DNA of 64,000 nucleotides from NCBI RefSeq assembly GCF_025979705.1, contig NZ_CP110136.1, positions 1,488,001 through 1,552,000 of the forward strand. Direction: 5' to 3'. The position numbers and the translations under genes were made by a program. The notes below the pieces were generated by a model that worked only from the letters and a program-made list of their open reading frames with translations, did no database searches and had not been told where the DNA came from. This DNA is from Hymenobacter sp. YIM 151858-1. GTDB lineage: Bacteria > Bacteroidota > Bacteroidia > Cytophagales > Hymenobacteraceae. Positions 1 to 64,000 of this stretch are shown piece after piece (position 1 is the first letter of the stretch; every line of letters starts with the position of its first letter).

Positions 1-584
1 CGGCGGCCCTGCTTAGCAGCTGCGACTCGCAGCGCACGGCCACCGAAACCGCCGCCCCCAACCCCACGGCCAGTACCGCCGTGCCCGCGCCGAACGAGAG
101 CTTCCGGAAAGAGATGAGCCGCGGCGACTACAATTTTGCCGTGCGCACCGTAGGCAGCGGCTCGCAGCGCCAGCTTACGCTGGAGGCCAAACGCCTGGGC
201 CGCGAGCTGATGGCCTCCAGCACCAGCATCGAGGGCGTGGTGGCCGATGCCGTGGTTACCAACCTCAACAACGACGATTACCCCGAGCTGCTCGTGTTCA
301 TGAACGCGGCCGGCAGCGGCTCGTACGGCAAGCTCGTGGGCTACGAATTTCTGAGCCGGGGCCGCCGCAACCTGGTGTTGCCGGCCCTCGATGGCCCTGC
401 CGCGGTGGGCTACCTAGGCCACGACTCGTTTCGGGTTGAGGACCGCAAAATCATCCGCAGCTTTCCGGTGTACCTGCCCACCGACCCCAACAGCTCGCCC
501 TCGGGCGGCACGCGCGTGGTGGAGTACGAACTGCCCAAACAGGGCGGCTCCATTACCATGGTGAGGCACCGCACGCTGCCCTAG
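1..584 (+). CDS. lipoprotein of unknown function (5' end outside window)
   Basis: The left edge cuts this gene. The frame is open from base 3 and stops at the TAG at 582-584. The first visible codons read ALLSSC-D, a lipobox with Cys at 21-23, so only the start and part of the signal peptide are missing. About 187 mature residues follow: a Thr/Ala/Pro-rich linker, then a globular part with TNLNNDDYPELLVF and AAGSGSYGKLVG. That pattern loosely recalls PliI-like lysozyme-inhibitor domains, but this is a resemblance only. It is predicted to be membrane-anchored outside the cytoplasm. The stop codon is the TAG inside a CCTAGG palindrome. It is convergent with the desaturase gene and shares its terminator. 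Confidence 0.7.
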   Translation, partial: AALLSSCDSQRTATETAAPNPTASTAVPAPNESFRKEMSRGDYNFAVRTVGSGSQRQLTLEAKRLGRELMASSTSIEGVVADAVVTNLNNDDYPELLVFMNAAGSGSYGKLVGYEFLSRGRRNLVLPALDGPAAVGYLGHDSFRVEDRKIIRSFPVYLPTDPNSSPSGGTRVVEYELPKQGGSITMVRHRTLP

Positions 585-611
585 GTGCCCGGCCCGGGCG
601 GCTACCAAAAC

Positions 612-647
612 ACCGCGCCCCGGCCTGCAGGCAGGTCGGGGCGCGGT
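612..647. terminator. bidirectional terminator hairpin
   Basis: An 11-bp perfect stem (612-622 with 637-647) extends inward by about five more pairs including a G-U. A-rich sequence lies on the left and T-rich sequence on the right. It lies between convergent genes. Confidence 0.65.
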
Positions 648-670
648 TGGTATTCCAACACGTTCAGCGG

Positions 671-1774: not shown

Positions 1775-3391
1775 TTACGGCTGAACTGCCGGCCCGGCAA
1801 TGGTACGGGCAGTGGGCCACGCTACGCCCACCCAATTGTACAAATAAACGCGCCAAAATGCGGCGGCCTCGCCGGGCGGCAGGTACAACACGGTATTGGG
1901 GCGTGCGGCCAGGCGGCGCAGGGCCTCGGGCTGGCTGCGCGTGCCGGTAAGCCGCTGCCGCAACCGCGCCTGCGAGGGGTCGAGGGTGTTCCAGCCCACC
2001 ACCAGCAGCCAGGGCTTGCCGCCATCGGCCACGTACTGCCCAAACGGCGAAAGCGACTTGAACTGCTCCTCGAGCCCTACGGCCACCAATTGCCGCCCTT
2101 GCAGCTGTCGCTGCAGCTGCTCCAGTGCCCGGCTTCGGTGCGCTTCTTCGGCAGCCAGCACGCGGCTGCGGTGCAGCACTTTGTAGGCGTACAAGCCCGC
2201 TACCAGCACAGCCACACCCAGCAGCAGGCGGCGCCCTAGGTGCCCGATGGGCTGCCAACGCCCGGCGGCCTGCAGCACTGCGGCGGTGTGGCCCACCGTG
2301 AGCAGGGTAAGCAGCGGCCCGGCTATGCGGGGCGGCAGCTTAAGTACTACCCCCAGCCCCAACAGCAGCAGCCCCGCTCCCACCACGTAAAGCAGCCACC
2401 CCTTGCGCCTCGGCGGCGGCAAAGCACCTAGGGCTACCGATGCCAGCCACGCATTGAGGAGGAGCAGCGGAAAGTAGTCGCGCACCAATTGGCCCAGTAC
2501 TGCCTGCAATTTGGCCGGCGCGATACGGCGCAGGAAATCAGGGTTGAGCTGAAACGCCCTAGCGAACAAGCCCTCATTGACGAGCGTGGAGTCGCCGAGC
2601 ACCCAGTGCTGCACGGCTTGCGCCCCCAGGCTATCGGCGGGGCTGCGCGGGTTGGGCGCGTACAGCTGGTAATCGTTCGCGTTGGATTTCAGTACATCGA
2701 GCTGCCGGTAGCGTGCGGCTTCGGGGCTGCGCCCCAGGTGCAGCACCGCCCCACCAACCACGGCCACCCCGGCCGCCAGCCCTACCACCAGCCAGCCGCG
2801 CCGCCACCCGGCCAGCCAGGCCGCCGCGGGGGCTACCACGGCCAGGCCGAGCACGGCGGCACTGGGCCGGACAGCCCAGGCCATGGCAAACGCCACTACC
2901 GCCAGCAGCAACACCCCGCCCCTGCGCCGGCTATGGGCCTGGCGTTGGGCCCCGTACAGCACCGCGCCGCCGGCCAGCAACAGCGGCACCCGCACGTAGT
3001 TGAACCACATGAAATGCTCGAGCCCGGCCAGCAGCAGAAACGCTGCCAGGCAAGCCGTGCGGGCGCGGCCGCCCAGGTGCGGGCGCAGCAGCCCATCGAG
3101 CACGGCCGTGAGCAGCGCCAGCGCCAGGTACAGCAAGCCGTAGAGCAGCAGCCCGTACCACGGCACCGTGGGCCAATGCTGGTAGAGCGCGGCCAGCAGC
3201 CCGGCCCAGCCGTGCAGGTACAGGTGCAGGTTGGCGACGGGTTCGGCCGCCGTGCGCCCGCGCAACAGCAGCGTGATGACGAAGTCGTCGTTGGTTTCGT
3301 AGTAGCAGCCCAGCCCCAGCGCCACGAGCAGCAACAAGCCCAGGGGCAGCCCCCACATGCGCAGCCAGTAAGCCCGGATTTCGTGGTTCAT
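1775..3391 (-). CDS. polytopic membrane protein, glycosyltransferase-like
   Basis: A 538-residue protein with about ten hydrophobic segments. It opens with a membrane helix after MNHEIRAYW, then a short loop YETNDDF and a leucine-rich series of helices; the last 150 residues look extracytoplasmic. The N-D-D in the first loop is where GT-C glycosyltransferases carry an acidic pair, so a lipid-linked sugar transferase role is possible but unproven. ATG at 3391 is preferred over the longer open frame (to 3475) because the added residues are non-hydrophobic and would overlap the divergent gene at 3466. It sits back to back with another GT-C-like gene, suggesting a joint role in envelope glycans. 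Confidence 0.7.
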   Translation of the reverse strand: MNHEIRAYWLRMWGLPLGLLLLVALGLGCYYETNDDFVITLLLRGRTAAEPVANLHLYLHGWAGLLAALYQHWPTVPWYGLLLYGLLYLALALLTAVLDGLLRPHLGGRARTACLAAFLLLAGLEHFMWFNYVRVPLLLAGGAVLYGAQRQAHSRRRGGVLLLAVVAFAMAWAVRPSAAVLGLAVVAPAAAWLAGWRRGWLVVGLAAGVAVVGGAVLHLGRSPEAARYRQLDVLKSNANDYQLYAPNPRSPADSLGAQAVQHWVLGDSTLVNEGLFARAFQLNPDFLRRIAPAKLQAVLGQLVRDYFPLLLLNAWLASVALGALPPPRRKGWLLYVVGAGLLLLGLGVVLKLPPRIAGPLLTLLTVGHTAAVLQAAGRWQPIGHLGRRLLLGVAVLVAGLYAYKVLHRSRVLAAEEAHRSRALEQLQRQLQGRQLVAVGLEEQFKSLSPFGQYVADGGKPWLLVVGWNTLDPSQARLRQRLTGTRSQPEALRRLAARPNTVLYLPPGEAAAFWRVYLYNWVGVAWPTARTIAGPAVQP

Positions 3392-3465: not shown

Positions 3466-5133
3466 GTGAATGCATTTGCCCGCCTGCGCCCCTGGCTGCC
3501 CACCCTCACGCTGGGGTTTGTGGTGGTGTTTACGGTGGCGTACTTCGTCTTCAGCCACGAAGGCCTCTACGCCCTCGACGACTACTTTTACGCGCGCTAC
3601 GCCCACCAGCTGCTGCACGGCACGTTTCACCTAGGGCCCGACCCGCAGGGCCTGCTGCACGACCCCTTGCACGAGCGTTGGCTGATATTCGGGCCGGTGG
3701 CGCTGTGCTACGCCGCGTTTGGCCTGAACATCTGGAGCACCACGCTTTGGCCCCTGGTGGCTACGCTGCTCTGCTCGGTGCTGATTTGGGCCCGCTACCG
3801 CCGCCGGCAGCCCGTGGTGGCCTGCGGGGCCATGCTGCTGCTGGGTTTGCACTACTTCGCGCTCAACCTTACCAACTACCTCTACCCCGACAACATCAAC
3901 ATGCTGGCCTGCTTTGCCGCGGCCCTGGCCTTGCTGGTGGGCCGGCAGCCCGGCCGCCACGCGGTGCGCTGGGGCGCGGGGTTTGCCTTGCTGAACTTCG
4001 CGGCATTGCTCTGCAAGGAAACCGTGGTGTACTACGCGCCTTTTTACCTGGGCGTGCTGGGCCTTGATGCCGTGCGGCGGCAACACGGGCGGTTTTGGCT
4101 GGCGGCGTTTGCCACGGGCGCGGCTGTGCTGGCGGCTTACCTGGGCTTCTATCAGCTCCAGACCAACGATGCGCTGTACCGGGTGCACCTCATCGAAAAC
4201 ACCAACGAGTTTCTGAAGGAAGGCAACTACCTGCTGGGCAACCGCGCCGCCCTCTGGGCCCGCCTTACCCTAGGTCCGGTACAGTTTCTGGTGGGCACGG
4301 GGCTTGGTTTGGCGGTGTTGCTGGCCGTGGGCGCCGCGTTCCGGCCCACCGCTACCCAGCACCACGGCAGCAGCGCGCCGCCCGACGACGACCGGCGCTT
4401 CTGGCTGGGGCTGGCCTTCAGCACCTTGGCGTTCTACTGGTTTGGCAGCACCTCGCTCACGCAGTACAACCCCATTACGCTGCTGCCGCGCATGGCCACG
4501 CCGTTGTTGCCGCCGCTCTGCCTGGCCGCCGGCTACGGCCTCGCCGATGTGCTGCGCACCGGCCGCCGGGCGTGGCTGTATGCGCTGTTGCTGCTGGCCT
4601 GCGCCGCCTCCGACCGGGGCAGCGCCGCCATCCTGTACGCCGGCTGGGCCCTGGTGATGGGGGCCTTGTGGCTGGCTCCGCGCCTGCGCCGCCTGCAGCC
4701 CAACGGCCCGGCCTACGTGGCCCTGGGGTTGCTGGGCGTGGCTTTGGTACTGGCTTTGCGCCCGGCGCACTTCATGCGCAAGCCCAGCGTATCGGGCCAC
4801 TTCCCGCAGCACCGCCTGATCCGGCAACACCTCGGCGGGCAGCAGCCGGGCGTGGTGTTCGTGGATGATTACCTGATCGGCAACTACGATTTTTACTACG
4901 CGTACGAAGTGCCCAGCGGGCTGCAGTACCGCCGCTACTGGGCCCGCGACTCGGTGCAGCTGCGCCCGCCGCAACAGGCCTGGCTGCTGCTAAACCGCGC
5001 CACGCTCAGCAACCCTGAACTCACGCGCAAGCTGCTCCGCTACTCCCCCGATAGCGTGCTGCGCTGGTACCCCAACCGCCAACTGGTGGCGCAGGATGGG
5101 CCGGTGGAGCTGTATTGGGTTAAGGAAGAATGA
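3466..5133 (+). CDS. GT-C family glycosyltransferase (PMT/ArnT-like)
   Basis: A 555-residue polytopic membrane protein. After the first helix it has ALDDYFYARYAHQLL, with D38-D39. This matches the acidic loop-1 motif of GT-C enzymes that move sugars from polyprenyl-phosphate donors outside the membrane (GT39/GT83 type). Around ten more hydrophobic segments follow, then a soluble C-terminal tail of about 120 residues. The start is a GTG at 3466; no in-frame ATG lies nearby. The divergent neighbour encodes a similar membrane protein, and a GT2 transferase and flippase lie downstream on the other strand. The 3' end runs into an A/G-rich repeat (5117-5152). Confidence 0.75.
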   Translation: MNAFARLRPWLPTLTLGFVVVFTVAYFVFSHEGLYALDDYFYARYAHQLLHGTFHLGPDPQGLLHDPLHERWLIFGPVALCYAAFGLNIWSTTLWPLVATLLCSVLIWARYRRRQPVVACGAMLLLGLHYFALNLTNYLYPDNINMLACFAAALALLVGRQPGRHAVRWGAGFALLNFAALLCKETVVYYAPFYLGVLGLDAVRRQHGRFWLAAFATGAAVLAAYLGFYQLQTNDALYRVHLIENTNEFLKEGNYLLGNRAALWARLTLGPVQFLVGTGLGLAVLLAVGAAFRPTATQHHGSSAPPDDDRRFWLGLAFSTLAFYWFGSTSLTQYNPITLLPRMATPLLPPLCLAAGYGLADVLRTGRRAWLYALLLLACAASDRGSAAILYAGWALVMGALWLAPRLRRLQPNGPAYVALGLLGVALVLALRPAHFMRKPSVSGHFPQHRLIRQHLGGQQPGVVFVDDYLIGNYDFYYAYEVPSGLQYRRYWARDSVQLRPPQQAWLLLNRATLSNPELTRKLLRYSPDSVLRWYPNRQLVAQDGPVELYWVKEE

Positions 5134-5274: not shown

Positions 5275-6228
5275 TTACTTCAATAGAAAGCCCAATACCC
5301 CAATGGCGTAATCGAGGGGTTTGGCTTGCTTGGTTTGGCGGAGTAGCCGGAACAGTTGGCGGGCCTCGGGGCCGCGGCCGAAGCGCACAGCCTGGCGCAG
5401 CTCCCAGCGCAAACGCGTGGCCAAGGCGGCCAGCTCGTGGGGGGTGCGGCACAGGGCCAGCGCCTTCTTGCACACCCGAATGGTGGAGGCCACGTACGGG
5501 TCGTGGGGGCGGTAGGCCTTGCGCGACATCGACTGCGGGTGCAGCCGCTTTTGGGTCAGCACTTCGTCCTGAAACCCAAACGCCCAGTTGCGCGCGGCCC
5601 GCACCCACAGGTCGAAATCCTCGTAGGCCAGCGTCTCGTCGTAGCCCCCTAGGTCGTCGAGCATCGGGCGGCTGAACATCATGGTGGGCGTGCTGATGAA
5701 GTAGCGGCGCAGCACCTCGGCAAACACGTCGCCGGCGGCGGGTACGGGGTGCACGGGGCGCCCGGCGGCATCGCGCCGGAAGTGGTAGCGCACGTGCTGG
5801 CCCTGCTCGTCAATCAGCTCACAATCGTGGTAGGCCACGCCGCACCTAGGGCCTTGCGCCTGCATAAAGGCTACCTGCCGGGCCACGCGCTCGGGCAGCA
5901 GCACGTCGTCGGTGGCAAAATCAATCACGTACGCCCCGCGGCTTTGGCGCAGCGCCTGGTTGAAAGCCTGGCAATTGCCCACGTTGCGGGGCAGCAGCAG
6001 CAGGTGCCAATGCGGGTGGCGGGCGGCGTAGCGGCGCAGCACCTCGGGGCTGCCGTCGGTGCTGGCGTCGTCGACCAGCCACACCTCCAGGTGCGGGTAG
6101 GTTTGGGCGGCTATGGAGTCGAGGGCCGGGGCCAGAAAGCGCGCGTGGTTGTGGCACAAGGCCACGATGGTAACCAGGGGCGGCACGGTGGCGGCGGGCG
6201 GGGCGAGCGGGACGGTAGGCACGGGCAT
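5275..6228 (-). CDS. family 2 glycosyltransferase
   Basis: A 317-residue GT-A fold transferase. The N-terminal nucleotide-binding region reads VTIVALCHNHARFL, followed by VDDASTDGS (D53-D54) and the D-x-D equivalent DFATDDVLLP (about 103-112). It lacks membrane helices and is probably peripheral on the cytoplasmic face, adding a sugar to a lipid-linked glycan. Its ATG at 6228 directly follows the stop codon (6229-6231) of the flippase gene with zero spacing, so the two are one operon. The sugar specificity cannot be read from the sequence. Confidence 0.9.
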   Translation of the reverse strand: MPVPTVPLAPPAATVPPLVTIVALCHNHARFLAPALDSIAAQTYPHLEVWLVDDASTDGSPEVLRRYAARHPHWHLLLLPRNVGNCQAFNQALRQSRGAYVIDFATDDVLLPERVARQVAFMQAQGPRCGVAYHDCELIDEQGQHVRYHFRRDAAGRPVHPVPAAGDVFAEVLRRYFISTPTMMFSRPMLDDLGGYDETLAYEDFDLWVRAARNWAFGFQDEVLTQKRLHPQSMSRKAYRPHDPYVASTIRVCKKALALCRTPHELAALATRLRWELRQAVRFGRGPEARQLFRLLRQTKQAKPLDYAIGVLGFLLK

Positions 6229-7536: not shown

Positions 7537-7674
7537 GCAAGGGCAGTACGGAAGCGCAAAGTACTACCGCGGGGCGAGTACCCCTAGGTGCCCGGCAACC
7601 GAGCGGCGCCTGGGAGGCTATGCTGATTGTATTGTACAGTTACTGAAACGCAGCTACGCCCCGCGCGGCGCCCC

Positions 7675-7710: not shown

Positions 7711-8722
7711 AAAGCTCCCGCTCCAGCGTAAGCTTCAGGCTTGGCACGCCGCCTAGGTGGCGCTTAAACCGCAGCAACGATTCGTTGAGCCCGGTGGGCA
7801 GCGTGGAAGTGCCTAGGTCGAGCAGGCGCAGGCCGCTGGCTTGGGCAAAGGCATGCAGCCCGGCGTTCAGCAACACCACCGGGCTAAACGAGTTGTACTG
7901 CAGCGGGCTGGCCGGGTAAAAGTTGTAGAGCACGCCGCGGCCCGCCAGTACGGCCACCGTGAGGGCTACCCACTCGCCGGCGGCATCGCGCACCGAAAAC
8001 AGCAGGTACTCGCGCGGAAAGCGCCGAAACAAGTCGAGGAGCTGCTCCTGCGTGAGCGAAAGCGCCTGGCCTTTTTCCTCGCGGCAGCGCCTGAGAAACT
8101 CGTAGGCCAGCGGCAGCAGCAGCGGGGGCTCCTGCTCCACCCGAAACCCGTGGCGCAGGCACTTGTGCAGGCGGCGGCGCTCCGAGGGGTGCAGCCGCGC
8201 CTCGTAAGCCTGATCCAGCGGCAGGTAGCTGTCGATTTCGGCCAGACTTACGCGGTTGCCGGTACGCTGCAGGGCTGCCACCAGTGGCCCCATGGTGCGG
8301 GGCTCGTAGGCAAAGGGCGCCAGGCGCTGCACCAGCTGCCGCGCGCCGCGGGCGGCCAGCCCTAGGTGCCCGAGCGTCAGCCACTCGTCGAGCACCCCGG
8401 CGGGTACATCGGGGCGCAACAGCTGCGGGCCGCCAAAGGGCGCCTGCCAGGGGCTGCGCGCCACGGCATCGGGGCCGATAAGCACTGGCCACCAGCCCAC
8501 GGTTTGGGTCAGGTGGTGGTCTTCGAGCAGCACCAGCAGCCGTTGCCCCGCCGCGTTGGGTTGCGCTAGTTGGGTTGGCTGCACGTACAGGTACAGCTCA
8601 TCGGCCAGGGGCAGCGCGGGCACTGGCTGGGCTTGCCAGCGCAGGTGGTAGCGGCCGTTGCCGCTCCGCAACGCGCACACCTCGCCCGAAACGGCAGCAG
8701 CAGACACGTCGGAGAAGGGCAT
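7709..8722 (-). CDS. FemAB/GNAT-like acyltransferase
   Basis: A 337-residue soluble protein. The C-terminal half resembles the FemAB-like/BioF2-like acetyltransferase fold: LHPSERRRLHKCLRHG, then the strand-helix region YLLFSVRDAAGEWVALTVAV and YNFYPASPLQYNSFSP, ending in LDLGTSTLPTGLNES and LLRFKRHLGG. Relatives transfer acyl or aminoacyl groups in cell-wall or capsule assembly; the substrate here is unknown. ATG at 8722 (MPFSDVSAAA) is chosen because the longer frame (to 9094) would overlap the divergent corA gene and has no domain character. A near-consensus -7 box (TACCTTCG) lies at about 8754-8761. Confidence 0.65.
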   Translation of the reverse strand: MPFSDVSAAAVSGEVCALRSGNGRYHLRWQAQPVPALPLADELYLYVQPTQLAQPNAAGQRLLVLLEDHHLTQTVGWWPVLIGPDAVARSPWQAPFGGPQLLRPDVPAGVLDEWLTLGHLGLAARGARQLVQRLAPFAYEPRTMGPLVAALQRTGNRVSLAEIDSYLPLDQAYEARLHPSERRRLHKCLRHGFRVEQEPPLLLPLAYEFLRRCREEKGQALSLTQEQLLDLFRRFPREYLLFSVRDAAGEWVALTVAVLAGRGVLYNFYPASPLQYNSFSPVVLLNAGLHAFAQASGLRLLDLGTSTLPTGLNESLLRFKRHLGGVPSLKLTLEREL

Positions 8723-8909
8723 TTCAGTCACGCAGGAAAGCAGGTAAGGCTGCGAAGGTAACGCAAAAAACGGCCGTAACTGGCTAAGCTGGCCCGGCCG
8801 CCCTAGGTGCCCAATACCGGCCGCGAACCAAGGAGCGGCACATTTTTGCCCGCGCCTGCGTAGCATTACGCCAAAGTGTGCTTTACCGCGCCCCCGTTCC
8901 CCGCTTTGT

Positions 8910-10142
8910 ATGTCTGATTTGAACGCGGCCAATCCGCACCCCGCCACCTCCGGCACGTTTGCCAACACCGCTGCCCCGCCCCCGCCAGCCGCCGATGACG
9001 ACGAGGAAGTCGACCAAACCACCAGCGTAGCCGACCGCGACGCCACCCGGCAGGCGCACATGAAAGGCGTGGGCGCCCGCCCGGGCACCCTCACGGTATC
9101 GGACGAGGCGCTGCCGCCTAGGTTGTTTTTGATGAGCTACGACACGGGCAGCTACGACGAATGCGAGTGCGCCAGCTACGACGAGCTGCTGCAACGCTTC
9201 CGGAGCCAGCCCGAGCGCCGCCACTGGATTGACGTGCGCGGCTACGGCGACGTGGAGCTGATGCGCCGCATCATGCAGGATTTCAGCCTGCACCCGCTGC
9301 AAATGGAAGACGTACTGGGCGACTACCAGCGCGCCAAAGTGGAGGTGAACGAAGACGGCCGCTTGTTCCTGGTGTCGCGCATGACGGAGTTCTCGCAGCA
9401 ACTCGAAATCGACGACGACCAGCTGAGCCTGTTCACGGGGCCCAACTACGTGCTCTCGTTTCAGGACGACTACGAAGACTGCCTCGACTCGGTGCGGCAG
9501 CGCATTCGCTCGGGCTACAGCCAGATAAAGCAGCGCCCCCCGCTGTACCTCGCCTACGCCCTCACCGACGTGGTGCTCGACCACTACTACCCCACCATGG
9601 CCGCCATCGGCGACTACATTGAGGAGCTGGAAAACGTGATTTTGCGCGGGCGCCCCAACAAGCGCCTGCTGGCCCGCATCCTGCAGATCAAGAAGGATAT
9701 CGTGCGCTTCCGGCGCCTGGTGTACCCCGAGCGCGAAAAAATTGCCGAGCTGCTGCGCATGCCCGACGAGATAGTGTCGGAGGACATGAAGGTGTTTTTC
9801 CGCGACTGCTACGACCACGCCATCCAGGCCCTCGACCTCACCGAGAGCTACCGCGAATCCGTATCGAGCCTCATCGACCTGTACATGTCGGACCAGAGCA
9901 ACCGCATGAACGAGGTAATGAAGGTGCTTACCATCATCAGCAGCATCTTCATCCCGCTGAGTTTTGTGGTGGGTTTGTACGGCATGAATTTCCAGCGCGA
10001 AAACCCCAACGGCGGCATCAACCCCCTGAACATGCCCGAGCTGTACCACCCGCTGGGCTACCCGGTGCTGCTGGGTATTTTGCTGATTATCGTTTCGGGC
10101 CAGCTCATTTACTTCTACAGAAAAGGCTGGCTAAGCAATTGA
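8910..10142 (+). CDS. corA: CorA-family divalent cation transporter
   Basis: A 410-residue inner-membrane channel for Mg2+/Co2+. The N-terminal 330 residues form the acidic, helix-rich cytoplasmic funnel. Two C-terminal membrane helices are joined by the signature loop YGMNF (GMN at 358-360), and the chain ends with a basic tail (RKGWLSN). The first 60 residues, rich in Ala/Pro/Asp, precede the conserved domain and look disordered. The ATG at 8910 is the first start in frame after the divergent spacer. A CCTAGG palindrome encodes Pro-Arg at 9117-9122. Confidence 0.92.
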   Translation: MSDLNAANPHPATSGTFANTAAPPPPAADDDEEVDQTTSVADRDATRQAHMKGVGARPGTLTVSDEALPPRLFLMSYDTGSYDECECASYDELLQRFRSQPERRHWIDVRGYGDVELMRRIMQDFSLHPLQMEDVLGDYQRAKVEVNEDGRLFLVSRMTEFSQQLEIDDDQLSLFTGPNYVLSFQDDYEDCLDSVRQRIRSGYSQIKQRPPLYLAYALTDVVLDHYYPTMAAIGDYIEELENVILRGRPNKRLLARILQIKKDIVRFRRLVYPEREKIAELLRMPDEIVSEDMKVFFRDCYDHAIQALDLTESYRESVSSLIDLYMSDQSNRMNEVMKVLTIISSIFIPLSFVVGLYGMNFQRENPNGGINPLNMPELYHPLGYPVLLGILLIIVSGQLIYFYRKGWLSN

Positions 10143-10153: not shown

Positions 10154-11188
10154 TTATAGCTCTTTAAATATTTCGTTAGCAAGTACCGCCGCCACCTGGC
10201 TCAGGCGCTCGGCAACGCTGCCGGTAAGCACGATATAGGGTATGCCGAGCAGGCCCAGCTGCACCAGTACCGCCGCCTGGTGGAAGGCCTGCGCCGCGGC
10301 CGGCGCCCGGGTACCATCCTGCTCGAACGGAAAATCGGGGGCGCACACGAAGGTGTGCTGGTAGCGCGTGCGGGAGGCTTCGGCCAGGGTGTGCAGCTCC
10401 GGTTCGGCGCGGCCGTAGTAGGCGTACGAGTAGAAGAGCGTGGTAATGGCGTTGGTATCCACGAACAGCCAATGCCGGGCCTGCGGCAGGGCTTCGTCTT
10501 CGAGCGCGCGGTGGCGGTGGGCAATGCGCAGCAGGTCGTCGTAGGCCAAGTGGCCTTGCTGCTCTTCCCACAGCGTGCGGCCGTACTCGGGCACGTAGCG
10601 GGTGCCAAAGTGCTGGCCCAGGGCCGCCGCCAGCGTCGATTTGCCGGTGCTCTCGGCCCCGAGCAGTACCACGCGCTGCACGTAGCCGGGCGAGGCAAAA
10701 TGGGCCTGCACCACGGGGTGCAGCCAGTGGGTTTGGGCGTACACATCGGCGCGCACTTGCGTACCCGAAACGGGTACTTGCCGCCGGCTGGCATCCACCA
10801 ACACGTGCTTGGCCCCTAGGTGCGCGGCAAAGCCCGGCCCGTAGGCCTCGCTGCTGAACACCACATCGATGCGCACACCTAGGGCCGCCAGCCGCTGCCG
10901 CACCCATTCGCGGTGCGCGTAATCGGAGGCCGTATTGGGCGGCAAATCGTCTGTTTCGGGCCGAAAGTACCTGATGCGCAGCGGCGTAGCCCCAATGGCC
11001 GGGCCCTGCGGCTGGGCATAAATGGTTTCGAGCCAGTGGGCGCGCACCGGGGCCGGCATGCGCCCAGGGTCGGGGTTTGAGTACACCCACACGTGCAGCT
11101 CGTCGCACTGGGCGGCCGCGGCCTCCAGCAGGTACTGGTGCCCTAGGTGCAACGGGGCAAATTTGCCCACTACCAAGCCACGGCGCAT
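10154..11188 (-). CDS. nadR: NadR-like NMN adenylyltransferase / ribosylnicotinamide kinase
   Basis: A 344-residue bifunctional NAD salvage enzyme. Residues 1-150 form the nucleotidyltransferase: GKFAPLHLGH (8-17) holds the HxGH motif and SGTQVR (141-146) is the second signature. Residues 170-344 form a P-loop kinase with GAESTGKST (177-185). It lacks the N-terminal helix-turn-helix repressor domain of enterobacterial NadR, so it is catalytic only. The HxGH motif is itself encoded across a CCTAGG palindrome (11142-11147) that uses the rare Leu codon CTA. Convergent with corA. Confidence 0.88.
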   Translation of the reverse strand: MRRGLVVGKFAPLHLGHQYLLEAAAAQCDELHVWVYSNPDPGRMPAPVRAHWLETIYAQPQGPAIGATPLRIRYFRPETDDLPPNTASDYAHREWVRQRLAALGVRIDVVFSSEAYGPGFAAHLGAKHVLVDASRRQVPVSGTQVRADVYAQTHWLHPVVQAHFASPGYVQRVVLLGAESTGKSTLAAALGQHFGTRYVPEYGRTLWEEQQGHLAYDDLLRIAHRHRALEDEALPQARHWLFVDTNAITTLFYSYAYYGRAEPELHTLAEASRTRYQHTFVCAPDFPFEQDGTRAPAAAQAFHQAAVLVQLGLLGIPYIVLTGSVAERLSQVAAVLANEIFKEL

Positions 11189-15059: not shown

Positions 15060-15152
15060 TTGGATGGCGCTGGGCTTAACCTAGGTGCAAGCAGCGCTAG
15101 GATTTGTACCCAAACCTCTATATTCCTGCCCCATTTCACCTCCACCAGTTGC

Positions 15153-16676: not shown

Positions 16677-16699
16677 GGCTGACCTTGCTCCCCTCAACG

Positions 16700-41613: not shown

Positions 41614-41663
41614 GGCAAACTCGACTTGGTGGAACTACGAACGAAAGTACGCTTGTGCGCAAC

Positions 41664-48906: not shown

Positions 48907-48934
48907 CCTAGGGCGGCCTGACGCGGAAAACTCC

Positions 48935-52276: not shown

Positions 52277-54088
52277 ATGGTGAAACAACTAGCAGCCGCC
52301 GCATGGCTACTGGCTGCAGGAAGCCTGTTGTCTTCCTGCAACAAAGACGCTACCCAAGCGGTACAGCCCCGGGTAGCCGCAGCATCCAGCTCCAACTCGG
52401 CCGTAGCCGTGAACGGGGTAATGATGCAGGGTTTTTACTGGGATGTGCCCCGCACCACACCCGCGGGCACTTGGTGGCAAAACCTGGGCAGCAAAGCCGC
52501 CGAGCTGAAGGCTGCCGGCATTACGGCCATTTGGCTGCCGCCAGCCTATAAAGGCGGCAGCGCCACCGACGTTGGCTACGGCGTGTACGACCGCTACGAC
52601 CTAGGCGAGTTCAACCAGAAGGGCACGGTGGCCACGCGCTACGGCACCATCAGCCAGCTGCAGTCGGCTATTTCCTCGCTCAAAGGCCAGGGCATTCAGG
52701 TATACGAGGACATCGTGATGAACCACCTGACCTGGGCCGATGCGCAGGAAACCGTGAACGGCAACCTGGTGTACACCCGGTTTAACTACCCCGGCCGCGG
52801 CAGCACCTACAGCAGCTACCGCTGGAGCTCCGCCAACTTTACGGGCACGCAGCAGGCACCCAACAACGGCTGGTACCAGTGGAAAAGCTGGGACTTTCAG
52901 CCCTACGCCAACAACGACGCATACGACAACCTGCTGGGCTCGGAAATTCAGTACAACGGCAACCCGGCCAACCAAACCGAAACCATTAACTGGGGCAACT
53001 GGCTGACCACCAAGCTGCAGCTCGACGGCTACCGCCTCGATGCCACCAAGCACATTTACACGCCCTACGTAAACCAGTGGCTGGATGCGGTGAAGGGCAC
53101 GAGCGGCCGCTTTGCCGTGAGTGAGGCCTGGTTCCGGAACCTGCAGGAGCTGCGCAACTACGCCGCCGCTACCGGCGGGCGCACCAGCCTCTTCGACGTG
53201 CCGCTGCACTACACCTTCCAGGACATGAGCAACGGCAACGGCGCCTGGGATATGCGCGGGCTGCAGTTTGCGGGCTTTACCGAGTCGAACCCCACGCTGT
53301 CGGTATCGTTTGTCGACAACCACGACACCGACCACCAGGGCGGCGCCCTGTACTCGCCCGTGGTGAACCTGAAGATGCTGGCCTATGCCTACATCCTGAC
53401 GCGCGCCAACGGCTACCCCTGCGTGTACTACCGCGACTACTACGAGTACGGCCTGGGTCCGCAAATCAAGCAGCTGATTGACATTCGGCGGGCCAACGGC
53501 TACGGTGCCGGCGCCGAGTACACCAGCGCCAACGACGCCGACGTGTACGCCTACTCGCGCGCCGGCGACGGCACCCGCCCCGGCTTGCTGCTGCTGCTGA
53601 ACGACGGCTCCACGGCCCGCACCAAAACCCTGACCACGCCCTTCAAGAACGCTACCCTTACGGACAAAACCGGCAACCGCACCGGCACCGTTACCACCGA
53701 TGCCAACGGTACCGGCAACTTCCCGGTAAATGCGCGCAGCTACTCGGTATGGGTGCCCGGCAGCGGCAGCACCACGCCCCCGCCGCCCAGCACCACCACC
53801 ACGGCCGTAACGTTTCAGGTGAACTACAGCAACACCGTGAGCGGGCAGGATGTGTACGTAATCGGCAGCACGGCGCAGCTGGGCAGCTGGAATACGGCCA
53901 ACGCCATTAAGCTGAGCGGCGCCGCCTGGCCCACGTGGCGCGGCACCATCAACCTGACCAGCGGCACGGCCGTGCAGTACAAATACATTCGCAAGGACGG
54001 CGCTGGCAACGTGCTGTGGGAAGGCGGCTCCAACCGCGCCTTTACCCCCACCGGCACCAGCGTAACCCGCACCGATACCTGGCAGTAA
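52277..54088 (+). CDS. GH13 alpha-amylase lipoprotein with C-terminal CBM20
   Basis: A 603-residue surface-anchored starch hydrolase. The signal peptide ends in LLSSC. The GH13 barrel shows the nucleophile Asp in LDGYRLDATKHIY, the acid/base Glu in FAVSEAWFRN and the transition-state Asp in SFVDNHDTDHQGG. A Pro/Thr linker follows, then a CBM20-type starch-binding domain (VTFQVNYSNTVSGQDVYVIG, LGSWNTANAIKL, VQYKYIRKDGAGNVLWEGG). No Sus outer-membrane genes are nearby, so it may act alone. ATG at 52277 opens the signal peptide; TTG at 52241 falls in the promoter-like box. Confidence 0.93.
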   Translation: MVKQLAAAAWLLAAGSLLSSCNKDATQAVQPRVAAASSSNSAVAVNGVMMQGFYWDVPRTTPAGTWWQNLGSKAAELKAAGITAIWLPPAYKGGSATDVGYGVYDRYDLGEFNQKGTVATRYGTISQLQSAISSLKGQGIQVYEDIVMNHLTWADAQETVNGNLVYTRFNYPGRGSTYSSYRWSSANFTGTQQAPNNGWYQWKSWDFQPYANNDAYDNLLGSEIQYNGNPANQTETINWGNWLTTKLQLDGYRLDATKHIYTPYVNQWLDAVKGTSGRFAVSEAWFRNLQELRNYAAATGGRTSLFDVPLHYTFQDMSNGNGAWDMRGLQFAGFTESNPTLSVSFVDNHDTDHQGGALYSPVVNLKMLAYAYILTRANGYPCVYYRDYYEYGLGPQIKQLIDIRRANGYGAGAEYTSANDADVYAYSRAGDGTRPGLLLLLNDGSTARTKTLTTPFKNATLTDKTGNRTGTVTTDANGTGNFPVNARSYSVWVPGSGSTTPPPPSTTTTAVTFQVNYSNTVSGQDVYVIGSTAQLGSWNTANAIKLSGAAWPTWRGTINLTSGTAVQYKYIRKDGAGNVLWEGGSNRAFTPTGTSVTRTDTWQ

Positions 54089-54143: not shown

Positions 54144-54162
54144 GTTTCTGGGCTTTTGGCAC

Positions 54163-54747
54163 CTAGGCCTGCGGCCCGGCGGCTTTGGGCTGCTCGATTT
54201 CCTGCACCAGCTCCTGGTACCACCCCTCGCCGTATTTGCGGATGAGTGGCTCCTTCAGGAATTTATACACCGGCACACCCAGCTGCGCCCCGAAGGCACA
54301 GGCCGGGTTGCAGATTTCCCAGCGTTCATAATTCAGCGCCTCAAACTCGTCGTACTTGCTGATGCGGATGGGATACAGGTGGCAGCTGATGGGCTTTTTG
54401 AAGGTGGTGGCACCGGCCAGGTACGCCTGCTCGATGCCGCACTTCAGAATGCCGCGCTCGTCGTACAGCGCGTAAGCGCACTCCCGGTTATCAATGGTGG
54501 TGGTGCTGTAGTCGCCTTCCCAGTCTTTGATGTAGAGCCCCTGTTGCTCAATGGCATAGCGGCCACCTAGGGTCAGGAAAGGCTTGATCTTGTCGTACTC
54601 CTGCTCCAGAATGCGCAGCTCCTCTTCTTCGAGCGGAGCGCCTAGGTCGCCCTCCACGCAGCAGGCGCCTTTGCAGCGCTCGAGGTTGCACACGAAGAAC
54701 TGGTCGCGGACATCGTCGGAAACGATGGTATTCTGGATGACAATCAT
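54163..54747 (-). CDS. DUF3109 family Cys-rich protein
   Basis: A 194-residue cytoplasmic protein with eight conserved Cys, among them [17 protein letters not shown] (C-x4-C-x3-CC), [31 protein letters not shown] and [11 protein letters not shown]. The pattern is that of DUF3109, related to YkgJ-type zinc/iron-chelating domains. Metal binding is likely; biochemical function is unknown. ATG at 54747 ([13 protein letters not shown]) is the family start. A TAnnTTTG box lies 22 nt upstream. The stop codon is the TAG of a CCTAGG palindrome. Confidence 0.88.
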
Positions 54748-54777: not shown

Positions 54778-54896
54778 CAGCGGCAGATTCGGTGTGGAAC
54801 ACCTGAGCCGGAGCTGAAGTTCGCCTAGGTAAGCCAGATGCCCTATTGGCCGAGCACCTAAACCACATTCCCTTTCCCCCGGCGGAGCTTTCGGCT

Positions 54897-58138: not shown

Positions 58139-59446
58139 ATGTCAGCAGCTTTTGAAGTAATCGGCGGGCAACCGCTACGCGGCGAAATCGTGCCGCAAGG
58201 AGCCAAAAACGAGGCTCTGCAAATTATTTGTGCCGTGCTCCTGACCTCGGAGCCGGTTACCATTTCCAACATCCCGGACATTCGCGACGTCAACAAGCTC
58301 ATAGAGCTGCTGGCCGACATGGGCGTGAAGGTGGAGCGCCTGGGTGCCGATACCTACCGCTTTCAGGCCGACGACGTGAACATCGACTACCTCGACACGC
58401 CGGCGTTTGTGAAGCAGGCGCGCGAGCTGCGCGGCTCGGTCATGATTTTGGGCCCCATGCTGGCTCGCTTCGGCAAGTGCCAGCTGCCCAAGCCCGGCGG
58501 CGACAAAATCGGCCGTCGTCCGCTCGATACCCACTTTGTAGGCCTGCAAAAGCTGGGCGGCGAGCTAAAGGTAGAGGGCACCGATTTCTACAAGATTTCG
58601 ACTCCGGGCAAGCTGCACGGCGCCCACATGCTGCTCGATGAGGCCTCCGTTACCGGCACAGCCAACATTGTGATGGGCGCGGTACTGGCCGAAGGCACTA
58701 CCACCATTTACAACGCCGCCTGCGAGCCTTACTTGCAGCAGTTGTGCAAAATGATGGTGCGCATGGGTGCCAACATTCAGGGCATCGGTTCGAATCTGCT
58801 TACCATCGAAGGCGTGGAGCGCCTCGGTGGCACCGAGCACCGCATGCTGCCCGACATGATCGAGATTGGCTCGTTTATCGGCCTGGCGGCCATGACGGGT
58901 TCGGAAATCACCATTAAAGACTGCCAGATTCCGGAGCTCGGCCTCATCCCCGATACCTTCCGCAAGCTGGGTATCAAGCTGGAGTACCGCGGCGACGACA
59001 TCTTTGTGCCGGCCCAGGACCGCTACGAAATTGCCACGTACCTCGACGGCTCCATTCTTACCATCTCCGACCACACTTGGCCCGGCTTCACGCCCGATTT
59101 GCTGAGTATTGCGCTGGTGGTAGCTACCCAGGCCAAAGGCACCGTGCTCATTCACCAGAAGATGTTTGAGTCGCGTCTGTTCTTCGTGGACAAGCTCATC
59201 GACATGGGCGCGCAAATCACCCTCTGCGACCCGCACCGTGCCATCGTTATCGGCCTTGACAAGCGCCACGCCCTGCGCGGCATTACCATGACCTCGCCCG
59301 ATATTCGCGCTGGTGTGGCTCTGCTGATTGCCGCGCTGTCGGCTGAGGGCAAGAGCACCATCCTGAACGTAGAGCAAATCGACCGCGGCTACCAGAACAT
59401 CGACGGCCGCCTGCAAGCCCTAGGTGCGCAAATCAAGCGCGTATAA
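58139..59446 (+). CDS. murA: UDP-GlcNAc 1-carboxyvinyltransferase MurA (Asp active-site variant)
   Basis: A 435-residue enzyme for the first committed step of peptidoglycan synthesis, using phosphoenolpyruvate. KNEALQII holds the conserved Lys23-Asn24. The catalytic loop reads KPGGDKIGRRPLDTHF, with Asp122 where E. coli has Cys115, the residue attacked by fosfomycin. Other signatures are EASVTGTANIVMGAVLAEG and SDHTWPGFTPDLLS. Start and length are standard. It is in an operon with DUF4290 and ends in a strong terminator. Confidence 0.97.
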   Translation: MSAAFEVIGGQPLRGEIVPQGAKNEALQIICAVLLTSEPVTISNIPDIRDVNKLIELLADMGVKVERLGADTYRFQADDVNIDYLDTPAFVKQARELRGSVMILGPMLARFGKCQLPKPGGDKIGRRPLDTHFVGLQKLGGELKVEGTDFYKISTPGKLHGAHMLLDEASVTGTANIVMGAVLAEGTTTIYNAACEPYLQQLCKMMVRMGANIQGIGSNLLTIEGVERLGGTEHRMLPDMIEIGSFIGLAAMTGSEITIKDCQIPELGLIPDTFRKLGIKLEYRGDDIFVPAQDRYEIATYLDGSILTISDHTWPGFTPDLLSIALVVATQAKGTVLIHQKMFESRLFFVDKLIDMGAQITLCDPHRAIVIGLDKRHALRGITMTSPDIRAGVALLIAALSAEGKSTILNVEQIDRGYQNIDGRLQALGAQIKRV

Positions 59447-59544: not shown

Positions 59545-59916
59545 TCAGTCAATAATCATATCGACAATGGCCGTGACGATGGTGAGCACGAAGCTAAAGA
59601 TAAGGGCCGAAATAAAGCCATCGACTTTGAAGCCGGGCAGGATCCAATCGGCCAGCAGCAGGATGATGGCGTTGATGACCAACAGGAACAGACCTAGGGT
59701 CAGGATGGTGATGGGAAAACCGATGAACTTGAGAATCGGCTTGACAATCGCGTTCAGCAAGCCCAGCACTACTACCAACAACAACGCATCTACAAAGCTT
59801 CCTAGGTGAGCCCCCGGCAACACTTTGGTAAGCACGTAGGCGATGATGCCGCTAAGAATAAATTTCAGGATGAAGCCCATGATGAGCAGCTGTTTGGTGG
59901 AAAAGAAATTGCCCAT
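59545..59916 (-). CDS. YvlD/phage holin 4 family membrane protein
   Basis: A 123-residue protein with four hydrophobic helices: LLIMGFILKFILSGIIAYVL, DALLLVVVLGLLNAIVKPIL, FPITILTLGLFLLVINAIIL and GFISALIFSFVLTIVTAIVD. The NAIVKPIL and GFPITILTLGLF motifs mark the YvlD-type (Phage_holin_4_2) family, found widely in bacteria without phage context. Function unknown, possibly envelope stress. Its start codon is inside a perfect 14-bp hairpin. It follows the agmatinase-family gene on the same strand. Confidence 0.88.
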   Translation of the reverse strand: MGNFFSTKQLLIMGFILKFILSGIIAYVLTKVLPGAHLGSFVDALLLVVVLGLLNAIVKPILKFIGFPITILTLGLFLLVINAIILLLADWILPGFKVDGFISALIFSFVLTIVTAIVDMIID

Positions 59917-61069: not shown

Positions 61070-61102
61070 GAGGATGCGGTAAGAGGCACTGCTACCTGGC
61101 AC

Positions 61103-61738
61103 CTAGGCGGTTGGGCCGTTGCCGGGCAGGTCGTAGGTGCGGATAATGGAAAGAATTTTGTCGAAAGTGGCGCGGTCGAAGAACAGCATGAGCGGCAGTT
61201 CCACGTTGCTGTTCTGATCGGAGAACTGCGTGATAACCGAGAAGATCAGCGGCTGCATCTGCGGATGCGACAGCAGCAGGTTATCAAGGGCGTGCGCCAG
61301 GTCGCCTTTGGGGGCCCGCGGCGGGGCGCCGTAAATCTTGGCCTTCAGAATGTTGGCCAGTTGCGTTACCAGCGCCCCAGTGATGATGTTACTGATTTCA
61401 AGCAGCAACGATTCCTGCATCTCGCTCAGGTTAAGGGTTTCCTCAACCGTTTGGCGCAAACACACCCGCGATAAGCGCTGAATGTGCTGCCCCGAGAAGA
61501 ACATCAGGGTTGTACCATTGAAGTCGCCTTTGATGTCCGACTGCACAACGACGTGTTGCGCCTGGTACTTGTTCACCATCTTGAGTATATCGCGCGGACG
61601 GACGAGCTCGAGGCTCGGCACTTCCAGCAACACCCTTTCTTGGGCAATGGCAGCAAACGAGTCGGCTGCCCGCGCCAATCCGATGTTGAGGATTTCGCGG
61701 ATAATGTCCCGTTCCAGATCGTTCATGTGCAGGTCCAT
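61103..61738 (-). CDS. cheC: CheC-like chemotaxis phosphatase
   Basis: A 211-residue CheC/CheX-fold protein. The two active-site-type helices are LERDIIREILNIGLARAADS and SLLLEISNIITGALVTQLAN, each with the E-x-x-N signature of CheY-P hydrolysis. The middle has GTTLMFFSGQHIQRLS. It probably dephosphorylates the response regulator of the system encoded upstream. Start ATG at 61738 (MDLHMNDLERD); ATG at 61726 is possible. The stop is the TAG of a CCTAGG palindrome. It lies 68 nt after cheA. Confidence 0.85.
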   Translation of the reverse strand: MDLHMNDLERDIIREILNIGLARAADSFAAIAQERVLLEVPSLELVRPRDILKMVNKYQAQHVVVQSDIKGDFNGTTLMFFSGQHIQRLSRVCLRQTVEETLNLSEMQESLLLEISNIITGALVTQLANILKAKIYGAPPRAPKGDLAHALDNLLLSHPQMQPLIFSVITQFSDQNSNVELPLMLFFDRATFDKILSIIRTYDLPGNGPTA

Positions 61739-61806
61739 ACGGGTGGGTCAGTTAGGTAGCAGGCCGGCGGCAACTCGGCGGCGACCCGAATTTGGCTGTA
61801 CGTGTA

Positions 61807-63444
61807 TCATGGGCGGCGGGCTATGAAAAGGCGCGTCAGGGCTGGTACATCCAGTACCAGGCACACCTGCCCACTGCCGAGTAGTGTGACGCCACCAAAC
61901 AAATCAATCATGTCGAGCGGCTGACTCACGGGTTTAATTACAATGTCCTGCTGACGCAGAAACTGGTCGACAATCAGGCCCAGCTTACGACCATTATAGC
62001 TGGTAATAATGATGTCTTGGCGGCCCATCAGGGCCTCCCGGTCGGCGGGTTGCAATGGCTCGTCGGAATCGTCGAGCAATTCGGCCAGCTTCACCACCGG
62101 AATGTGTTCTTCCTGCACTTTGGCCAGCAACATGCCGCCAACCGCGTGCAACTGCTCGGGCCGCAACGAAACCACCGAATCGGTGTGCATCAGCGGCAAA
62201 GCGTACGAGTGGCCATCGAGCTGGAACAACAAAGCGCCTTTAACGGCAATTGAGGTGGGCAGCACCAGCGTAAAGGTGGTGCCTTGGCCCAGCTGCGACT
62301 CCACGCGCAGCTGACCACCTAGGGAGTCGATGGCGAGCTTAACAACGTCAAGACCCACGCCACGACCCGAAATTTCGGTCACCTGCTCCGCCGTCGAAAA
62401 CCCGGCCTCGAACATCAGGCCGTACACTTCAACGTCGCTCAGCCGACTGGCAACATCGGCTGGGATTTGACCGCGCTCCACCGCCTTGCGCCGCACGCGC
62501 TCCACGTCGATGCCGCGGCCATCGTCGATAATCCGGATCAGTACGTCGTCGCGCTCCGTTTGGGCCGAAAGCGTGAGATGTCCCATCGGCGATTTGCCAG
62601 CCCGAGCACGCTCTTCGGGCGTTTCGATGCCGTGGCCGATGGCATTGCGCACCAAGTGCAGCAACGCATCGGTGATAATCTGCAGGATGTTCCGGTCAAT
62701 CTGGATATCCTGCCCGCTGATGGTCAGCTCCACCTGCTTCTGCTCGGCGGTGGCTACGTCGCGCACTACCCGCGGAAACTTGTTGAACAGCGTACCCACC
62801 CCTACCAGCCGGGCATCCATTACGGAATACTGCAGGTCGTCGGCCAGGCGGCTGAGGTGCGCGGCTACGCTCGTCAAACCGATGTCGCCGATTTCCTGGC
62901 TTAGGGTCAGCACCCGGTCCCGATCAATAATCAGCTCGCCAACCAGATTGAGCAGGTGGTCGAGCTTTTTGATGGGGATGTAAACCAGGTCGGAAAGCTC
63001 CAGCTTACGGTTGGCATCCTCGTCGGAGTGCGTAACCTGGTTGGCATCCAGCACGGGTTCTTCCCCGCGCATCACCCGGTCGAGGTTGTCCAGCAAGTCC
63101 GTGCTTTCGGGCAAGGGCTGGTTGGCGCCTACTGCCCGGATCATTTCACCTAGGGCATCGATGCCCGCAAACAGCACCGGCACCAAAGTACCTGAGAAAG
63201 TGCGCTCCTTGCTGCGGATTTCGCCGAAGATGGTCTCCATCCGGTGAGCCACCTCGCCAATCTCGGTATAGCCCATGGCGCGGGCGTTGGCCTTCAGATT
63301 GTGCATCAGGCGAAACAGCTCCTGCAGGGCAGCCTCGTCGTCGGGGCGCTTCTCCAGCACCGAAATGTGCTGGCTCATGGCATCGTAAGCCTCAAGGGCT
63401 TCAGCCATAAACAATTCCCGGTATTCCTGTTCGCGCGATTTCAT
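61807..63444 (-). CDS. cheA: CheA histidine kinase lacking a P2 domain
   Basis: A 545-residue chemotaxis kinase. P1 holds the phosphorylated His48 in FRLMHNLKANARAMGY. A 35-residue linker leads straight to the P3 dimerisation helices (LDHLLNLVGELIIDRDRVLT), so the CheY-docking P2 domain is absent. P4 shows HLVRNAIGHGIETPEER (N box), IIDDGRGIDVERV and SGRGVGLDVVKLAIDS (G boxes). P5 is the CheW-like C-terminus. ATG at 63444 overlaps the cheB stop by 4 nt (ATGA), showing coupling. No CheY, CheW or receptor gene is within the window. Confidence 0.94.
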   Translation of the reverse strand: MKSREQEYRELFMAEALEAYDAMSQHISVLEKRPDDEAALQELFRLMHNLKANARAMGYTEIGEVAHRMETIFGEIRSKERTFSGTLVPVLFAGIDALGEMIRAVGANQPLPESTDLLDNLDRVMRGEEPVLDANQVTHSDEDANRKLELSDLVYIPIKKLDHLLNLVGELIIDRDRVLTLSQEIGDIGLTSVAAHLSRLADDLQYSVMDARLVGVGTLFNKFPRVVRDVATAEQKQVELTISGQDIQIDRNILQIITDALLHLVRNAIGHGIETPEERARAGKSPMGHLTLSAQTERDDVLIRIIDDGRGIDVERVRRKAVERGQIPADVASRLSDVEVYGLMFEAGFSTAEQVTEISGRGVGLDVVKLAIDSLGGQLRVESQLGQGTTFTLVLPTSIAVKGALLFQLDGHSYALPLMHTDSVVSLRPEQLHAVGGMLLAKVQEEHIPVVKLAELLDDSDEPLQPADREALMGRQDIIITSYNGRKLGLIVDQFLRQQDIVIKPVSQPLDMIDLFGGVTLLGSGQVCLVLDVPALTRLFIARRP

Positions 63445-64000
63445 CGGGTGTAGGAGCGGGAAACGGAAGTGGTTCGAGAAATCATCGGCCACGGGCGCAT
63501 CAACTGCGTGTGGGCGGTGATAAAGCGTGGTACCTCGCCCAGGCCGAGCACCACGGATGCATGACCGGCACGAATCACCGATTTGGGCATGCCGAATACT
63601 ACTGAGGATTCTTCGTCTTGGGCAACCACCGTACCACCAAGCTGACGCACTACCTGCGCGCCCACCGTACCGTCGTTGCCGAGCCCGGTTAGTACCACAC
63701 CTAGGGTATTGCGGCCCGCCGCACGGGCAGCAGAGCTAAGCAGCAAGTCGATGCTGGGTTCGTCGAGCGCGGGGGCCTGCTCAGTAGCCGGAGCCAGCCA
63801 CATTTGTTGCGGCAGGTTACCCTTAATCATCCAATGACGGCCGCCGGGTACCACCACTACTTTGCCGGGTTCGAGTCGCATGCCGGCAGCACCCTCTACT
63901 ACGGGTAGCACCGAGGCTTTGCGCAGCCGCTCCACCAGCGTAGCAGTAAAAGAAGCAGGCAAGTGCACCGCCACTACCACTGCATGCCGAAGTCCGGATT
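63441..64000 (-). CDS. cheB: CheB protein-glutamate methylesterase (N-terminus outside window)
   Basis: About 185 C-terminal residues are visible; the frame stays open to the right edge. VVVAVHLPASFTATLVERLR holds the catalytic His, and NTLGVVLTGLGNDGTVGAQ the catalytic Asp (G-x-G-x-D-G) of the methylesterase. PGGRHWMIKG and VFGMPKSVIRAGHASVVLGL also match. The family removes methyl or amide groups from chemoreceptors. Whether a receiver domain exists cannot be seen. It overlaps cheA by 4 nt, and the last 20 residues (RPWPMISRTTSVSRSYTR) are not conserved. Confidence 0.9.
   Translation of the reverse strand, partial: SGLRHAVVVAVHLPASFTATLVERLRKASVLPVVEGAAGMRLEPGKVVVVPGGRHWMIKGNLPQQMWLAPATEQAPALDEPSIDLLLSSAARAAGRNTLGVVLTGLGNDGTVGAQVVRQLGGTVVAQDEESSVVFGMPKSVIRAGHASVVLGLGEVPRFITAHTQLMRPWPMISRTTSVSRSYTR

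Follow-up and report, generated by a model that had tools for sequence, protein, structure and literature searches.

We found that the hexamer CCTAGG is iterated far beyond expectation in a 64-kb stretch of the Hymenobacter sp. YIM 151858-1 genome (the window, meaning the whole stretch analysed), and that it recurs thousands of times in that genome. In the clade of the window the word is mostly asymmetric, and other clades of the Hymenobacteraceae carry versions of their own around a common CCTAG core. The reading that we favor, to which we give a probability of about 0.4, is that the word is a clade-specific genome mark which is read by a putative DNA-binding factor, and which in form is like the highly iterated palindromes (HIPs) of cyanobacteria or the DNA uptake sequences (DUS) of Neisseriaceae.

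A first-pass annotation of the window had estimated about 76 CCTAGG sites against roughly 20 expected from base composition, and about 44 copies of an 8-mer against 2-3 expected. These figures hold. We counted exactly 76 sites, where base composition gives 21.4 and a third-order Markov chain predicts 13.7, and the 8-mer occurs 44 times (23 CCTAGGTG and 21 CACCTAGG) against 2.9 expected. The window genome (G000; 4.62 Mb in three contigs) contains 5,325 copies of CCTAGG and 75 copies of the reversed word GGATCC, which was used as the control. CCTAGGTG occurs 1,224 times forward and 1,189 times in reverse (2,413 in total), as compared to 3 and 3 for its reversed word. The annotation had named agreement with a third-order Markov expectation as its refutation; in a 644-kb sample of G000 we found 806 copies against 148.9 expected at third order and 114.9 at second order. 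The fourth-order expectation for this sample, 678.7, is near the observed count because the word itself largely makes CCTAG. The genome-wide density is 1.15 per kb, which is 3.5-fold above base composition, and enrichment over second-order Markov models was 7- to 10.5-fold in the samples. Copies are present in both orientations, inside genes and between genes.

The sites within genes show that selection, or some other drive, acts on the word at the DNA level rather than the protein level, as the first-pass annotation had held. Using genes called with a simple codon-usage gene finder, we found that 315 of 350 framed sites read xxC-CTA-GGx (Leu-Gly), thus placing the rare leucine codon CTA before glycine, while 35 read CCT-AGG; both gene orientations are represented. 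The third frame is a stop, and 43 of 337 genes of at least 300 bp terminate inside CC-TAG-G. The three conserved leucines that had been singled out are all encoded by CTA within a site: in the NadR-like gene (PLHLGH, 11142, the position given), in RsmA (KKHLGQ, 42424 rather than 42423) and in the aldehyde dehydrogenase (HQPLGA, 26910 rather than 26911). NCBIfam models support these gene names at the family level, with RsmA above its cut-off and the NadR and aldehyde-dehydrogenase models giving strong matches that fall below their equivalog cut-offs. Among the matches listed, which may leave out the window genome's own records, the one most similar to the window RsmA comes from Hymenobacter jeollabukensis (88%).

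The word is also conserved between species. The closest relatives of G000 are G200 and G201, which share ~87% identity with it over aligned DNA. CTA leucine codons were retained in G200 at 31 of 40 positions inside sites as compared to 19 of 54 elsewhere (Fisher p=6e-5), and in G201 at 28 of 37 as compared to 22 of 56 (Fisher p=7e-4). In a 264-kb comparison the core was intact in G200 at 215 of 290 aligned sites. A slightly looser filter gave 217 of 302, which ranks CCTAGG second among the 38 palindromic hexamers for which 25 or more sites align between G000 and G200; GTGCAC stands above it (67/92) and GCTAGC is last (5/28). CCTAGG is therefore conserved beyond most comparable words.

Sites are denser between genes (1.83 per kb) than in genes (1.08 per kb), and intergenic density depends on gene arrangement, with 2.24 per kb between co-directional genes, 3.92 per kb between convergent genes and 1.79 per kb between divergent genes. 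Strong hairpins are predicted at 13.6% of 169 intergenic sites as compared to 2.0% of 403 genic sites. Both the convergent-gene excess and the hairpins would suit binding sites of a nucleoid-structuring or transcription-termination related protein, for which the convergent-gene excess would be the functional core. We consider this unlikely. Weaker coding constraint alone predicts enrichment between genes and at stop codons, about 70% of sites (401/573) lie in genes or touch them, and the genic CTA codons are conserved. Furthermore, spacing in G000 is close to random, with 25 intervals of 6-40 bp against 31.7 expected and a coefficient of variation of 0.98. Regular spacing was rejected on this result; in the pooled genomes short intervals had seemed too few, with 6 against 21.7 expected at 20 bp or less, a bin that takes in overlaps which cannot occur. 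At 23686-23720 of the window and at L095:3755, L095:17018 and L099:7114 elsewhere in the sampled sequence, the word is present as inverted pairs that make hairpins of intergenic appearance, and such pairs resemble the inverted uptake-sequence pairs found in terminators.

The repeated unit had been taken to be the palindrome itself, and this is not borne out in the clade of the window. We classified sites by the presence of A at -1 and/or T at +1 of CCTAGG. Among 572 sites in 464 kb of G000, 526 have exactly one A/T flank (260 with A(-1) and no T(+1), 266 with T(+1) and no A(-1)), 14 have both and 32 have neither. If the flanks were independent, 134 sites would have both (ACCTAGGT; Fisher p=3e-105). 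The window has 74 sites with one flank, 1 with both and 1 with neither. G200 and G201 obey the same rule, with 7 both-flank sites against 83.4 expected (n=369) and 5 against 19.2 (n=85). Since each site carries one A/T flank, the word is mostly [C/G/T]CCTAGGT or its complement, with C preferred over G and G over T at the first position and one sense per site. The commonest bases that follow are G, then C or G.

Flanks had changed between G000 and G200 at 51 sites with an intact core. The 46 that started with one A/T flank mostly kept their class (37), with 5 moving to neither and 4 to both; of the 5 that started outside the one-flank class, 4 entered it and 1 remained outside. Compensating double flank changes were rejected as a mechanism, with 3 seen against 3.4 expected.

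An asymmetric word has a strand sense, and could serve as a Chi-like or KOPS-like (FtsK-orienting polar sequence) orientation signal for recombination or for a chromosome-segregation motor. The genome-wide orientation given above is even, 21 sampled regions of G000 lack clear orientation blocks, and patchy presence among close relatives would be unexpected for such a signal; we therefore regard this explanation as very improbable. A mild orientation bias may exist, since the weak GC skew does not allow the replication arms to be located. The G000 sample used for orientation, and for the one-off words below, included 20 kb of overlapping sequence, and the composition sample 12 kb. Replication orientation was set aside, no clear pattern having been seen in the 21 regions.

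To follow the word through the family, we counted CCTAGG in 204 Hymenobacteraceae genomes; CCTAGG was used because CCTAGGTG under-counted genomes with other flanks. Nine genomes are high, with 5,325-8,806 copies (G000, G200, G201, G023, G029, G116, G065, G081 and G097), four are intermediate, with 1,209-2,331 (G034, G036, G122 and G130), and the remaining 191 have 54-888. The first-pass annotation had expected loss of the excess in close relatives to count against it. Five of seven congeners (G197-G199, G202 and G203) indeed have only 123-249 copies, but the two closest relatives and at least three other groups keep the excess. The four of these negative congeners with measured GC content (that of G199 was assumed) have 0.06-0.12 of the base-composition expectation, and the word was not seen in 200 kb sampled from these four. 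In 1.5 Mb surrounding 80 named loci that were retrieved with RsmA there are 33 CCTAGG sites, thus within those stretches the phylum at large does not show the excess.

A tree of one marker, a UvrD-like protein, was built for 69 of the 204 genomes. The marker was searched in 80 genomes; G101 and G119 gave no match, and G129 (split marker), G019, G021, G024, G025, G028, G083, G088 and G103 gave a match and were left off the tree. The 13 positives are spread over four or five separate groups, parsimony requires six changes of state, and holding the positives as one clade is rejected (approximately unbiased test, p-AU 0.0005). The word apparently arose several times in the family.

The positive clades differ in the flanks around the common CCTAG core (ACCTAGST, CCCTAGGG, TGGCCTAGS). 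We read these dialects from 20-400 kb per positive genome, or 7.3 kb for G122. Besides the one-A/T-flank rule of G000, G200 and G201, we found ACCTAGGT plus ACCTAGCT in G023, G116 and G029; CCCTAGGG in G065, with 88 copies on both strands (44 sites) against 2.6 expected; a loose [A/C]CCTAGG[G/T] in G081 and G097; and TGGCCTAG, followed mostly by G or C, in G034, G130, G036 and G122. Sites with both A/T flanks are also rare in G081 (9 against 19.5 expected) and G097 (2 against 7.6). The units of G065 (CCCTAGGG) and of G023 and G116 (ACCTAGGT) are palindromic.

Some DNA of the window genome is free of the word. The four sites of the 20-kb locus L096 (G000:C1:3,000,001-3,020,000) all precede base 2,490. 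A gene that weakly matches a phage integrase begins at 3,074, the GC content beyond about 6 kb is 0.53-0.56, and CCTAGG is missing both from the final 17.5 kb of L096 and from L153, the C5-methyltransferase locus next to it. Most of this island (L096:3074-20000 plus L153) is low in GC, and besides the integrase-like gene it encodes a DUF6615 protein, a Schlafen/AlbA-2 domain protein and the adjoining C5 methyltransferase. From the two small contigs, C2 (158 kb) and C3 (101 kb), 24 of 259 kb were sampled: 12 kb of C3 had no CCTAGG where 13.8 were expected, and 12 kb of C2 had 4, of which 3 are outside the flank rule.

A pure mutational or repair bias could generate such a word without function, and it would fit the shortness of the word and its presence wherever the chromosome was sampled, apart from the island. 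Three results make this improbable in our view. When flanks change the flank class is mostly preserved, the island and small contigs, which may be recent arrivals, were not converted, and no one-off word is depleted relative to the negative congeners. Nine one-off words had ratios of 0.85-2.51 in G000 as compared to those congeners, and three that contain CTAG or CCTA were mildly commoner, by 1.5- to 2.5-fold. The lack of depletion argues against a simple conversion process, and conversion from a single precursor word was rejected.

The description of HIP1 dates from 1995, and as late as 2015 little was said to be known of its significance (PMC4390886, here and below from an excerpt). Like HIP1 and the alternate HIPs of cyanobacteria (GCGATCGC, GGCGCC, RCCGGY, GCSGC), the Hymenobacter word occurs about once per kb, is short, GC-rich and patchy, and takes different forms in different relatives (PMC4390886). 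HIP1, which had been proposed as the closest known case, is thus matched in density and, in the clade of the window, not in palindromic form: here the unit is asymmetric, built on a CCTAG core, in a Bacteroidota host family, and unlike the cyanobacterial HIPs it has no methyltransferase, among six families, that is common to the clade.

If the word were a mark of the HIP1 type, an orphan DNA methyltransferase would methylate CCTAGG and the methylated word would direct mismatch repair, by which it would be created and kept (Elhai 2015). That model accounts for a density of about 1 per kb in cyanobacteria by the reach of mismatch repair, and word and methyltransferase tend to co-occur there, but the same excerpt records HIP1-rich genomes without a CGATCG methyltransferase (PMC4390886). 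Palindromic units in G065 and in G023 and G116 are in keeping with such an enzyme, and in the other clades the searches leave room for a shared one. In the clade of the window, we searched PF01555, PF00145, PF02384, PF02086, PF07669 and PF20473 in G000, G200 and G201 and found no methyltransferase of these families common to all three. PF01555 had no match in G200, PF00145 none in G200 or G201, PF02384, PF07669 and PF20473 none in G201, and PF02086 none in any of the three. The matches in G200 were PF02384, once, and PF07669 with PF20473 at one MmeI-type gene; the only match in G201 was PF01555, in a 300-aa frame on a 12.5-kb contig. A methyltransferase as the shared cause, which the first-pass annotation had listed among its candidates, was therefore rejected for this clade on the six families. 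Elhai's model requires an enzyme that was not found among them, and we think a HIP1-type mark unlikely.

The MmeI-type (type IIL) gene of G000 is 92-98% identical to that of G200 except in the recognition domain, where identity is 53%. The family is also carried by the negative congeners G198, G199 and G202. This enzyme was rejected as the cause, since the recognition domains of G000 and G200 differ despite the same word. The two MmeI-type restriction-modification genes, L302:1947-5579 and L303:1898-5458, come from close relatives and differ mainly in the target recognition domain, which is likely to have been swapped. CCTAGG is also the target of AvrII-type restriction-modification, and restriction targets are usually avoided in host genomes. 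The 3.5-fold enrichment of CCTAGG in G000 is unlike that of a restriction site.

The likeness to the DUS dialects of Neisseriaceae lies in thousands of non-palindromic copies whose core is shared and whose flanks vary by clade (PMC3630211, excerpt). The Hymenobacter word is, in addition, missing from a mobile island. These features, and the inverted pairs in some intergenic hairpins, would suit a classical DNA uptake sequence to which a type IV pilus binds through a minor pilin, and DUS dialects with a required CTG core exist in Neisseriaceae (PMC3630211). Unlike DUS dialects, which follow the Neisseriaceae phylogeny, the Hymenobacter word is discontinuous over the family tree. It is also shorter, with 7-8 informative bases. 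Known uptake words have 9-12 bases, and the uptake signal sequence of Pasteurellaceae is a related type. The retraction-ATPase PilT (TIGR01420) gave no match in any of 11 positives (the nine high genomes, G034 and G130, with G036 and G122 outside the search), and none was over the cut-off in the 38 genomes searched. The strict form of this explanation thus already requires a pilus without PilT. Uptake by a type IV pilus is not supported, and we hold it to be highly doubtful.

We favor a clade-specific mark read by a putative sequence-specific DNA-binding factor, whose specificity would differ from clade to clade and which would be absent or inactive in most relatives. Selection, or a transmission bias of marked alleles, would maintain the word at roughly one copy per kb, marking long-resident DNA as 'self'. 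From the one-A/T-flank rule, we suggest that the factor would read one orientation per site, so that ACCTAGGT, which is readable from both strands, would be disfavored in the clade of the window. The step from mark to function is one that we infer. The dialects and the lack of sites in mobile DNA are our chief grounds for preferring a mark of self-recognition, which would act either in DNA exchange or in protecting the cell's own DNA from a nuclease. Its operation would resemble that of the DUS dialects of Neisseria, with some machinery in place of a pilus driven by PilT. More tentatively still, and with doubt outweighing belief, this may be a new genome-wide self mark of Bacteroidota with repeatedly evolved CCTAG-core dialects, a putative reader distinct from both methyltransferases and type IV pilus receptors, and disfavor of both-strand-readable sites in the clade of the window.

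Several results weigh against the clade-specific mark. No reading factor was found and no gene was shown to covary with the word, in an analysis that had no unbiased gene-content screen. The literature searched held no report of competence in Hymenobacter, the excerpt of PMC8565304 being concerned with the SOS response, and the PilT family was without a match in the positives tested. Paired flank changes between G000 and G200 were not above chance. The absence of the word from the island and small contigs would also be expected of recent arrivals under any slow process. The tree is of one gene, and transfer of the marker could mislead.

Among the literature matches listed, whose coverage is partial, there was no earlier report of the word in Hymenobacter. 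The positives form a set phylogenetically distant from cyanobacteria, and a single genus includes species with the word and species without it, so that the cause of highly iterated words can be put to the test. In contrast to the pairing of word and methyltransferase in cyanobacteria (PMC4390886), the word in this family apparently has several origins and differing dialects, and one of its clades has no shared methyltransferase of the six families.

The 76 sites of the window are as follows. CCCTAGGT (+ sense) lies at 580..585 (overlapping the TAG stop of the open reading frame 81-584), 2235..2240 (kept in G200), 4269..4274, 5648..5653, 7583..7588, 8361..8366 and 8802..8807 (both kept in G200 and G201), 10815..10820, 11142..11147 (the HLGH codons of the NadR-like gene), 12255..12260, 15834..15839, 16770..16775, 18289..18294, 20732..20737, 21926..21931, 23715..23720 (right half of the intergenic inverted pair), 24277..24282, 26910..26915 (the PLG codons of the aldehyde-dehydrogenase gene, kept in G200 and G201), 29238..29243, 31257..31262, 32644..32649, 34888..34893, 36600..36605, 40635..40640, 45467..45472, 51808..51813 and 59419..59424. 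GCCTAGGT (+) lies at 7752..7757, 7812..7817, 9117..9122, 22285..22290, 27708..27713, 38358..38363, 42172..42177, 42424..42429 (the KHLGQ codons of RsmA), 48417..48422, 54641..54646 and 54824..54829, and TCCTAGGT (+) at 59801..59806.

On the opposite sense, ACCTAGGG (-) lies at 2427..2432, 3630..3635, 5845..5850, 10878..10883, 16672..16677 (overlapping the TAG stop of the open reading frame 15060-16676), 18953..18958, 21576..21581, 23098..23103, 23686..23691 (left half of the pair with 23715..23720), 29432..29437, 32842..32847, 34726..34731, 38914..38919, 39402..39407, 44869..44874, 48907..48912, 51978..51983, 54566..54571, 59693..59698, 62318..62323, 63149..63154 and 63700..63705. ACCTAGGC (-) lies at 413..418 (core kept in G200), 14996..15001, 34105..34110, 35851..35856, 41663..41668, 47385..47390, 51735..51740, 52600..52605, 54162..54167 and 61102..61107; at 41663..41668 the relatives have the A/T flank on the other side (CCCTAGGT in G200, TCCTAGGT in G201). 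ACCTAGGA (-) lies at 12708..12713, 28697..28702 and 31780..31785. The two sites without a sense are GCCTAGGG at 14150..14155, where neither flank is A/T, and ACCTAGGT at 15080..15085, where both are.

Other words also deviated from expectation. TGCGCA occurs 72 times in the window against a third-order expectation of 38.1 (1.9-fold), and both it and GTGCAC are conserved to an unusual degree in G200 (144/219 and 67/92), for which codon use may account. In 60 kb of the negative congener G198 (L197-L199), TGACAACT and its overlapping 8-mers occur 16 times against 0.3 expected, and this may be either a further iterated word or a repeat element. Part of the genus has almost no GATC: we found 2 copies against 444 expected in 120 kb of G081 (L120-L121, L175-L178), 1 against 265 in G065 (L188-L190, L256), 2 against 291 in G097 (L122-L123, L179-L180, L257), and 0 against 71-75 in 20 kb each of G016, G126 and G043 (L263, L271, L272). 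In agreement with this, whole-genome counts of GGATCC are 1-15 in these six genomes.

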